Source: Hydrocarboniphaga sp.
Lineage (GTDB): Bacteria; Pseudomonadota; Gammaproteobacteria; Nevskiales; Nevskiaceae
Reading direction: 5' to 3'
Length of the DNA stretch: 64,000 nucleotides
Assembly (NCBI RefSeq): GCF_028291725.1
Contig: NZ_JAQGNT010000084.1
Coordinates: 1-64,000, forward strand
The notes under the pieces were generated by a model. That model was not told where the DNA came from and did no database searches. It saw nothing but the letters and a program-made list of their open reading frames with translations. Both the position numbers and the translations under genes were made by a program. Positions 8,866 through 62,146 of the stretch are shown piece by piece. Each line of letters starts with the position of its first letter. Positions within the stretch are counted from its first letter, which is position 1.

Positions 8866-8904
8866 GCCGCTGTTTTAGGGGTTCTATAACGGCGATTTCC
8901 GAAG

Positions 8905-8984
8905 CGCAACTGTAGGAGCGGGTCATACCCGCGACTGTGCCGGCGGGGACTCAGTCGCGGGTATGACCCGCTCCTACAGTTGCG
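8905..8984. repeat. Inverted pair of GTAG-hairpin (REP-like) elements, type A
   Basis: Two perfect 32-bp arms (8905-8936 and 8953-8984) around a 16-base centre. Each arm contains GTAG followed by a hairpin (GCGGGTcatACCCGC), with GTAG on the outer ends. It lies between the convergent ends of the secreted-protein gene and zwf and may also act as a bidirectional transcription stop. The GTAG-plus-hairpin form is that of REP elements mobilised by RAYT transposases; no RAYT gene is in this window. Confidence 0.85.
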
Positions 8985-8993
8985 GATCGAGGT

Positions 8994-22152: not shown

Positions 22153-22833
22153 ATGAACGGCAACCTGTCGCTGGCGCAACTGATCACGCAAGCGAGCGTC
22201 CCGGTCCAATTCATCATGGCCTTGTTGATCCTGGCGTCCGTCAGCTCCTGGGCGGTGATCTTCGCCAAGCGCAGCCTGCTGTCGCGCACCCGCAAGCAGG
22301 CCGAAGGTTTCGAGAACCGTTTCTGGTCCGGCGGCACGCTGGTCGATCTCTATGAGAGCACCCGCCGCGGCAAGGAAGACGAGGGCCTGATCCCGATCTT
22401 CACCGCCGGTTTCGAGGAATATTCGCGCCAGCAGCAGGGCGGACGCATGGACCCGGAAGACGTGATCGCCGCAGTTCAGCGCCAGATGCGCGTCGCCCAG
22501 GTGCGTGAAATCGAGAAGCTCGAAGGCGGCCTGTCGATGCTCGCCACGGTCGGTTCGGTGAGCCCCTACGTCGGTCTGCTCGGCACGGTCTGGGGCATCA
22601 TGAGCGCGTTCATCGCGATCGGCAGCGCCAAGAACGCCTCGCTGGCGATGGTCGCTCCCGGCATCGCCGAAGCGCTGATCGCCACCGCGATCGGCCTGTT
22701 CGCGGCGATCCCGGCGGTCGTCGCCTACAACTTCTTCACCAATTCGGTCGAGAGCCTCGAGAACCGCTACGCCACGTTCACCGACGAGATGATCGGCATC
22801 ATCGAGCGCGCGCTGCGCACTGCCAAGGCTTGA
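22153..22833 (+). CDS. tolQ: Tol-Pal system proton-channel subunit TolQ
   Basis: Inner-membrane MotA/ExbB-family protein that, with TolR, uses proton-motive force to energise TolA. The 226-residue protein has three predicted membrane helices (about 15-37, 130-160 and 170-195), with the conserved GLLGTVWGIMSAFIAIG and APGIAEALIATAIGLFAAIPAVVAYN segments. It is separated from tolR by about 470 bp containing a large palindromic element, whereas these genes are normally adjacent. Confidence 0.97.
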   Translation: MNGNLSLAQLITQASVPVQFIMALLILASVSSWAVIFAKRSLLSRTRKQAEGFENRFWSGGTLVDLYESTRRGKEDEGLIPIFTAGFEEYSRQQQGGRMDPEDVIAAVQRQMRVAQVREIEKLEGGLSMLATVGSVSPYVGLLGTVWGIMSAFIAIGSAKNASLAMVAPGIAEALIATAIGLFAAIPAVVAYNFFTNSVESLENRYATFTDEMIGIIERALRTAKA

Positions 22834-22848
22834 TGAAGCGGCTATCGG

Positions 22849-23304
22849 ATGCCTAGAAAAATGAGCGAGCTGGACGATACTAAGCCCAACGCCAGTAAAG
22901 CCTCACGCAGAGCCTTCGCCGCCGTCTGCCTGCAAGGCGCGGCTGCGCCGGCAGGGTCATTCCCTGTCAAGCAGACGCAACGCAGCAGGCGGGCGGCGGC
23001 GAAGGCTCCCTCCGGGCGAGGCCTGTCGGCCCTTCTGGCGGCGTTGCCGTCGCTCGCCATAGGCTCGCTATGCCAGCGCGCCGGCGCCTTGCCACAAGCG
23101 CCGACAGGCCTCGCTGCGCGAGGCTTTACTGGCGTTGGGCTTAGTATGCGCGGCGCTAGCCGGCTCCTGCGGGATGGCCGCTTCATCAAAACGGAGCATG
23201 GCTTTTTGCTTGTTGCTCCGGCCACTATCGGGTGCGTTAACAGGAGCGGTGTAAGCATGCGAGCTGAGGTTCCCCGTTTTGATTGTCAGTGGCCGGAGCA
23301 GTAA
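22849..23304 (+). CDS. Doubtful ORF running through the palindromic element between tolQ and tolR
   Basis: An open frame of 151 codons from the ATG at 22849 to the TAA at 23304. The translation is Ala/Arg/Gly-rich with no membrane or domain features. Two thirds of it is palindromic sequence, which alone can keep frames open on both strands; a minus-strand frame of 138 codons covers the same DNA. No good ribosome-binding site precedes it. I think it is a by-product of the repeat, although a translated ORF would keep ribosomes moving from tolQ to tolR. Only the last 15 codons have their own ribosome-binding site (separate entry). Confidence 0.2.
   Translation: MPRKMSELDDTKPNASKASRRAFAAVCLQGAAAPAGSFPVKQTQRSRRAAAKAPSGRGLSALLAALPSLAIGSLCQRAGALPQAPTGLAARGFTGVGLSMRGASRLLRDGRFIKTEHGFLLVAPATIGCVNRSGVSMRAEVPRFDCQWPEQ
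22877..23147. repeat. Cloverleaf-like palindromic element inserted between tolQ and tolR
   Basis: The outer arms 22877-22910 and 23114-23147 are 34 bp with one mismatch. Directly inside them lie two further stems: 22911-22932 with 22986-23007 (20 of 22 paired) and 23016-23030 with 23100-23114 (15 of 15). The second encloses a small hairpin (CATAG/CTATG near 23058-23072). Folded, this gives a stem opening into at least two branches, a four-way-junction or cloverleaf layout. No transposase is encoded. It resembles a non-autonomous mobile repeat or a structured RNA element; I know no name for it. Confidence 0.8.
23215..23299. repeat. Inverted repeat flanking the duplicated tolR start region
   Basis: GCTCCGGCCACT (23215-23226) and AGTGGCCGGAGC (23288-23299) form a perfect 12-bp inverted repeat. 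The right arm contains the GGAG ribosome-binding site of tolR, so pairing would hide it. Between the arms lies a second copy of the ribosome-binding/start motif. Confidence 0.6.
23257..23304 (+). CDS. 15-codon ORF immediately before tolR, possible leader peptide
   Basis: ATG at 23257 is preceded by GGAGC and GTGTAAGC; the tolR start has GGAGC and AGTAAGC. The two start regions look like duplicates 50 bp apart. The reading frame encodes MRAEVPRFDCQWPEQ and stops with TAA 2 bases before the tolR ATG, covering tolR's ribosome-binding site. Ribosomes translating it would open the hairpin of the flanking inverted repeat and could reinitiate at tolR. This role is inferred; too short for homology judgement. 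Confidence 0.35.
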   Translation: MRAEVPRFDCQWPEQ

Positions 23305-23306
23305 GC

Positions 23307-23762
<456 letters not shown>

Positions 23763-62072: not shown

Positions 62073-62146
62073 CCGTAGGGCGGGTCATGACCCGCCGTCT
62101 TTCTGTCTGAGTGTGTCAAAACGGCGGGTCATGACCCGCCCTACGG
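62073..62146. repeat. Inverted pair of GTAG-hairpin elements, type E
   Basis: Perfect 26-bp arms (62073-62098 and 62121-62146), each GTAG followed by the self-complementary GGCGGGTCATGACCCGCC. The stem is close to that of the type A element at 8905 (GCGGGTcatACCCGC), so the two may be related subfamilies. Lies between the permease gene and htpG. Confidence 0.9.

Follow-up and report, generated by a model that had tools for sequence, protein, structure and literature searches.

A palindromic cloverleaf between tolQ and tolR of Hydrocarboniphaga sp., probably one of a family of MITE-like elements that keep their fold while stem letters change

The palindromic cloverleaf that separates tolQ and tolR in a 64,000-nucleotide stretch of Hydrocarboniphaga sp. 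DNA (the whole stretch that was analysed, called the window below) is real. It probably belongs to a large MITE-like family of short transposable elements that are non-autonomous, in which the cloverleaf is kept while the letters of the stems change. What is unusual is that a conserved cloverleaf occurs under several types of ends, and that simpler cousins made of a single palindrome (the single class) show a strand preference. No earlier description of these elements was found in the available part of the open-licence PubMed Central literature.

The initial annotation had described a nested palindrome at 22877–23147, with a 34-bp outer stem containing one mismatch and two abutting inner hairpins. 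This description stands, and it was refined by a mini-hairpin and new ends. The outer arms (22877–22910 and 23114–23147) are complementary at 33 of 34 positions, and the arms of the inner hairpins (22910–22933 with 22985–23008, and 23016–23039 with 23091–23114; 24 nt each) are 92% complementary. Folded as RNA, 22877–23147 yielded −210.8 kcal/mol, compared to a mean of −127.5 (sd 5.15) for shuffled sequences (z = −16.2; 0 of 200 as good). The fold has an outer stem of 32 pairs that encloses two 99-nt hairpins with a 7-nt mini-hairpin between them, all directly abutting. Fold and palindrome search place the arms of the outer stem, that is, the terminal inverted repeats, at 22877–22909 and 23115–23147 (+ strand). 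Hairpin 1 (22910–23008) has its core, CAAGGCGC...GCAACGC, on the + strand at 22933–22983; hairpin 2 (23016–23114, − strand, core at 23041–23091) is an inverted copy of the hairpin-1 cassette. Since the mini-hairpin (23009–23015, + strand, inside CCCTCCGGG at 23008–23016) lies between the two big hairpins, the junction is four-way. The interior is made up of two inverted copies of a cassette of about 99 nt plus the mini-hairpin, closed by the terminal inverted repeats. The ends follow from the pattern of the relatives, TA-CTAAG...CTTAG-TA (266–269 bp, at unrelated sites), which places the element proper at 22880–23144 (265 bp, or 269 bp with both TA). The TA on either side (22878–22879 and 23145–23146) is presumed to be a target duplication, on the basis that TA flanks both ends of 9 of 10 copies in another genome (G205) whose flanks are otherwise unrelated. 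A known RNA family was ruled out: an Rfam search of 22600–23500 gave no family at the gathering score (best E 0.049, far below it), and eight related loci gave nothing at E ≤ 0.05.

The flanking genes, by sequence resemblance probably tolQ (22153–22833, + strand) and tolR (23307–23762, + strand), were read from the list of open frames. The tolR frame could start at TTG 23283 or at the in-frame ATG 23307, the latter matching the start in two genomes of the same genus (G001 and G003). tolQ and tolR are co-transcribed as a rule. A separation of about 470 bp had been noted, and comparison with same-genus relatives bears this out, with 472 extra bp (22834–23305). In a third genome of the genus (G002) the tolQ match runs to window position 22833, and the base next to it already belongs to the tolR match, which takes up the window at 23306; the genes abut there, without a counterpart of 22834–23305. 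G001 and G003 also have the two genes side by side, with junctions reading ...CTGAGCATGGGCGC and ...CTGAGCCATGGGCGCC. The pair is uninterrupted in all three same-genus genomes, which differ from the window not only in the cloverleaf: about 203 of the 472 extra bases lie outside it. These comprise 22834–22877 on the 5′ side, where 22830–22846 pairs with 23173–23189, and 23147–23305 on the 3′ side, with a palindrome at 23207–23226/23288–23307; both are missing from G002, and the own-genome search listed no other match for 23161–23310. They may be what is left of an earlier insertion that later received the cloverleaf. A regulatory RNA specific to tol-pal would suit the position between genes that are normally co-transcribed, but the three relatives lack an insert and the relatives of the element lie at unrelated loci, and such an RNA is very improbable. 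An open frame of 151 codons (22849–23304, + strand) in the list of open frames runs through the insert, although nothing indicates a gene: its translation had no Pfam match at E ≤ 0.1 and no relative in a plasmid collection, and on both grounds a coding gene in the insert was ruled out. The likeness to Ala/Arg-rich hypothetical proteins of Xanthomonadales that the initial annotation had suggested thus gained no backing from Pfam or the plasmid collection.

The window contains two other strong hairpins, at 8900–8989 (arms of 38 nt) and 62073–62146 (arms of 29 nt). A stretch resembling the former (GTAGGAGCGGGTCATACCC) recurs beside elements at two loci (L085 and L092), and the 8900–8989 hairpin is therefore probably another dispersed repeat.

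Both hairpins of the tolQ copy have a core motif in common, GCGTTGC followed by about 36 bases and GCGCCTTG (on the other strand, CAAGGCGC...GCAACGC). Copies were searched with the pattern GCGTTGCN{28,48}GCGCCTTG, using the reversed pattern as control. This pattern needs an exact core, so that diverged copies are missed and some chance matches included, and one cloverleaf can yield two matches, as the tolQ copy and the C10 copy described below each do. The own genome gave 53 matches compared to 1 for the control; three of the 53 (on C94, C101 and C110) look like chance matches inside coding sequence. A same-genome search with the insert, which the initial annotation had proposed, brought up a second full element (C10:162384–162655), equal to the tolQ copy in geometry and different in its stem letters, as well as several single palindromes; the core motif is common to all of them. 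Two size classes were apparent, single palindromes mostly of 163–164 bp and cloverleafs mostly of 270–273 bp from TA to TA; the tolQ copy is 269 bp measured from its TACTAAG ends. Several contigs of the assembly end within copies.

Four sites in the own genome (L104, L110, L111 and L114) have the outer stem alone, 56–60 bp without cassettes; a locus of 97 bp in G214 (L408) lies at a contig end. Solo outer stems could be either a minimal mobile form or the product of repeated clean loss of the interior. Lone tolQ-type ends without a partner in reach were seen at three own-genome sites (L435, C75:75228; L448, C99:27014; L449, C116:22093), apparently decayed copies. Apparent nested insertions occur at L119 (G000:C100), L369 (G017) and L443 (G205); the kinds seen are a further palindrome nested in a cloverleaf, TAGGGCCTGTTA ends that enclose an IS630-type element, and a pair of different cloverleaf types joined end to end. 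Among the single-class copies of G000, direct repeats (CTTAG...CTTAG or CTAAG...CTAAG) flank some of the AGTGCC subfamily (L010, L011 and L013), and in several places the element edge seemingly supplies the TAG stop of the preceding gene.

Of 117 related genomes, 92 had at least one core match, chance matches included. The richest (matches, control) were G068 (134, 3), G076 (77, 0), G081 (60, 3), G077 (52, 0) and G042 (34, 0), and the same-genus G001, G002 and G003 gave 7, 8 and 2 matches, which were judged, by their letters alone, to be chance. A scan of named genomes showed 9 cloverleafs and 14 single palindromes among at least 116 matching stretches, with hosts that include Thioalkalivibrio thiocyanoxidans ARh2, Pseudomonas atagonensis, Chitinimonas viridis, Massilia rubra and Variovorax boronicumulans; records titled Gemmatimonadetes, Acidobacteria and Crossiella also have palindromic elements, and contamination is possible in binned records. 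The tolQ-type end TACTAAGNCNAACGCNAGTAAAGC (≤ 3 mismatches) was found in 16 of 373 genomes, chance matches and the own genome included, with 41 matches in G205. Paired ends of this type span 266–269 bp in G205, G147, G342 and G348. All ten G205 copies retrieved measure 267 bp and occupy unrelated sites; the one without TA at both ends adjoins an apparent second element. When the tolQ copy and five tolQ-type relatives were refolded, all six gave a three-branch cloverleaf (branches of 96–100, 7 and 95–101 nt, or the mirror image). A plasmid collection gave no match to a G205 copy, and of at least 120 matches in viral contigs, one of those listed had palindromic arms, so that there is no sign of a phage vehicle. 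Overall, the scans suggest that the element family is widespread, with many copies in Pseudomonadota.

Conservation of the fold was assessed on 232 distinct core matches; an outer palindrome of 255–300 bp defined the cloverleaf set (53 elements), and a cut-off on the arms the single set (49 elements). Strict geometry, with branches of 90–103, 7–9 and 90–103 nt, was found in 40 of the 53 cloverleaf-sized elements, and most of these 40 have CCCnnnGGG or a near form as mini-hairpin. Eighteen representatives with 5′ arms less than 55% identical were used for covariation. Watson-Crick pairing was 0.853 in the outer stem, a value inflated by the use of the outer palindrome for selection, 0.775 in hairpin 1, which was unselected except by the geometry filter, and 0.785 in hairpin 2. 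With 3′ arms swapped between elements, mean pairing was 0.305, 0.325 and 0.329, respectively (top of 500 trials: 0.383, 0.424 and 0.414), and with arms slid by 1–3 positions it was 0.23–0.33. A mean of 3.5–3.75 of the 4 Watson-Crick pairs was observed per position. Among nine tolQ-type and similar elements, two-sided changes occurred in 76 of 101 consensus pairs. The least variable parts are unpaired or adjoin unpaired bases (CAAGG opposite AACG, and CAAG on the 3′ side of the hairpin), together with the CCCnnnGGG mini-hairpin and, in the tolQ type, TTCAG/CTGAA at the junction. The fold, and not the letters, appears to be what evolution keeps. The initial annotation had named, as its own counter-case, a palindrome without second copy or compensatory changes; dispersed copies and two-sided changes were both found. 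A chance or private palindrome was rejected on z = −16, the dozens of copies and the covariation. Taken together with a small coding gene, for which the 151-codon frame could speak and against which the missing Pfam match stands as well, this explanation is barely credible.

The core gives single-class elements a direction, which allows mismatches in the arms to be assigned to a strand. On the GCGTTGC strand, the 49 single-class arms contained 63 A.C and 11 G.T mismatches, and 21 representatives of less than 60% identity contained 29 and 4, respectively (P = 1e-5). All 21 representatives fold better on the CAAGGCGC strand, on which 30 of 36 cloverleaf hairpins are also more stable; these stability counts are partly due to the common core, whereas the arm mismatch counts are not. 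If the DNA mutated as a double strand, the two kinds of mismatch would be expected in about equal numbers; at least in the single class, selection therefore seems to act on one folded strand, either RNA or single-stranded DNA.

For the cloverleafs the strand claim has to be taken as weaker, because the hairpin tallies are mixed and the per-element over-dispersion test on whole cloverleafs was not significant (P = 0.062). A first tally (39 arms, in a different register) gave 28 G.T and 31 A.C, without strand asymmetry. A second, taken over 22 bases from each junction of three-branch elements, gave 40 G.T and 26 A.C for hairpin 1 and 36 G.T and 72 A.C for hairpin 2, both on the + strand. The 36 hairpins of the 18 representatives, read on the CAAGGCGC strand, had 50 G.T compared to 22 A.C (P = 0.0013). 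The outer stems, which are symmetric between strands, showed no asymmetry (35 G.T, 33 A.C).

Gene calls from a simple GC-based script span 2 of the 49 single elements and none of the 53 cloverleafs, leaving 100 of the 102 elements without a called gene across them. By the same calls, the orientation of single-class elements relative to co-directional neighbours was even (12 versus 10; 12 convergent, 5 divergent), and a role in sense mRNA is thus unsupported by position. The structured RNA that had been suggested for the insert is supported in part: the fold prefers a strand in single-class elements but has no sense preference relative to co-directional neighbours, and RNA is indistinguishable from single-stranded DNA in these data.

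The elements could be MITEs whose palindromes stay perfect only through copying (template switching or quasi-palindrome correction), with a functionless fold, and the near-perfect arms in subfamilies that swap letters wholesale are as correction would give. However, correction should erase mismatched internal loops, whereas the CAAGG/AACG loop and the loop lengths are kept, and it should act without the strand preference that is seen as G.T versus A.C asymmetry in the single class. We regard this explanation as unlikely and keep to a MITE-like element with a conserved fold.

Mobility was assessed from the ends, the target sites and the insertion sequences (IS) of other genomes. The genus of G077 has insertion sequences of about 858–866 bp with PF01609 transposase genes, some of them broken, whose ends read CTAGGGCGTGTTGAGGTTTC (G076), CTAGGGCGTGTTGCCGTTTC (G062 and G083) or, at one end, CTAGGGCCTGTTGATGTTTC (G068). 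In G076, the insertion sequences L331 and L346 and the cloverleaf L283 are identical over the terminal 20 bases (CTAGGGCGTGTTGAGGTTTC, CTAG edge included) and then diverge. Of the cloverleafs in G077, L278 ends in AGGGCCTGTTGCCGTTTC, one base off the G062/G083 insertion sequence end, and L296 ends in GGGCCTGTTGATGTTTC, as does the G068 insertion sequence at one of its ends. The N-terminus of the L346 transposase matches PF13340, transposase of the IS4/5 family. For the single class, 5 of 29 PF13358 (IS630-type) loci have ends of its kind (CTAGTGTCCTG or similar); with about 12–13 terminal bases shared, and between different genomes, this link is only suggestive. No insertion sequence with tolQ-type ends was present in the 30 loci examined. 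In the own genome, PF01609 matched at three places and PF13358 at two stretches of one broken gene, with the best nearby inverted repeats unlike the element ends; 26 TAGGGCCTGTTGACATTG sites (≤ 3 mismatches) included no same-contig pair at insertion-sequence distance, and those inspected were cloverleafs, solos, halves or contig ends. The own-genome transposase partner may be lost or unassembled.

An empty site was found in G068, reading GATAGTTC-TA-ACGACC, with the element of G077 directly after GATAGTTC. The empty site has a single TA; the filled site reads GA/TC instead of TA, and the alignment with G068 fails over the adjoining 17 bases to the right. In-register TA at both ends was seen in 51 of 102 elements (26 of the 53 cloverleafs, 25 of the 49 single elements), and CTAG in 14 cloverleafs and 18 single elements. 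Where TA is not in register, the element may have decayed, its edges may have been misplaced, or a different target rule may apply. The non-autonomous mobile repeat that had been proposed for the insert is thus upheld by dispersed copies, by the empty site of a relative and, in another genus, by cloverleaf ends equal to those of an IS5-family element in the same genome. A different route would be for the element to be a folded single-stranded DNA substrate of an HUH or tyrosine recombinase (like REP/RAYT, IS200/IS605 or attC), its likeness to IS5 ends being secondary. The strand-preferring fold and the free stem letters agree with such a substrate, but the 20 bases in common with a same-genome IS5-family element do not, and the ends, which are symmetric and in half of the elements flanked by TA on each side, fit DDE transposition; we consider a recombinase substrate quite unlikely.

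By most tests the MITE-like element preferred here is a MITE. It is short and without a transposase gene (265 bp, the spanning frame lacking a Pfam match), and its terminal inverted repeats pair at 33 of 34 positions. Copies are many and dispersed (53 core matches versus 1 for the control; 41 tolQ-type ends in G205), and presence and absence were both seen, in G077 versus G068 and in the uninterrupted tolQ-tolR of three of three same-genus genomes. The evidence on target duplication is made up of TA at 9 of 10 G205 copies, half of the elements in register and the unequal empty and filled sites; that on autonomous partners, of the end identity in G076 and a tolQ type without partner. The end identity in G076 would imply that an IS5-family transposase acts in trans on the L283 cloverleaf at TA/CTAG, and by analogy with that member the tolQ copy may have been mobilised in trans by a putative transposase. 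We infer that each cassette would work as a folded single strand on the CAAGGCGC...GCAACGC side, and two inverted cassettes would make the cloverleaf equivalent on either strand. Our best guess is an RNA role, in which the fold would be bound or processed within read-through transcripts, so that an element landing next to or within an operon like tol-pal would be tolerated; a role of folded single-stranded DNA in transposition is nearly as likely.

A broader reading is offered tentatively, as one that is possible and on balance doubtful: the hairpin of about 99 nt would be an unrecognised folded cassette (RNA or single-stranded DNA) with conserved internal loops, carried widely, perhaps across phyla, under at least two unrelated transposase end types (IS5 and IS630), its fold kept and its letters lost, and read by a conserved factor of the host or element. 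The usual definition of a MITE rests on sequence, and MITEs are commonly regarded as insertion sequences with deletions; in this family it is the shape that is conserved. The interior is not a remnant of the insertion sequence whose ends it carries, because the transposase gene fills 804 of 866 bp in L346 and L334, and most stem pairs have compensatory changes. The family is a testable case of mobile DNA that is selectable for a single-stranded fold, and its core and geometry provide a search handle for many Pseudomonadota elements, some inside important operons.

Among known systems, integron attC sites fold in a strand-specific way, keep their structure and leave the stem letters free to vary. 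The cloverleaf family is like them in its conserved structure and free stem letters and, most clearly in the single class, in its strand preference; it is unlike them in its symmetric ends and two cassettes. REP/REPIN sequences with their RAYT transposases are similarly dispersed intergenic palindromes, but the available text of PMC3733652 and PMC2817692 gives REPs as 20–40 bp, mostly with GTAG or CGTC tags, whereas the cloverleaf family has elements of 163 or about 270 bp and IS5- or IS630-like ends; at 265 bp and with CTAAG...CTTAG ends, the tolQ copy was rejected as a REP/REPIN. The available parts of a review of prokaryotic MITEs (PMC10969869) and a paper on pneumococcal repeats (PMC3049150) mention stable folds and IS mobilisation; the word cloverleaf is absent from the main text of the review, as available. 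BOX of Streptococcus pneumoniae is modular, dispersed and folded, and its ends are proposed to be IS-like, but in the available text of PMC3049150 it is found in pneumococcus and close relatives and built of sequence modules, whereas what the cloverleaf family has in common is structure and not sequence. The same text describes prokaryotic MITEs thought to be mobilised by insertion sequences, RUP with IS630-Spn1 and Nezha with an ISNpu3-like element, which are like the cloverleaf in being short and without transposase, with IS-like terminal inverted repeats and a tight fold if transcribed. In contrast to RUP and Nezha, the cloverleaf combines one interior fold with several end types and occurs in many bacterial families, its stems covary nearly completely, and inside it two hairpin cassettes, whose internal loops are conserved, lie inverted to each other.
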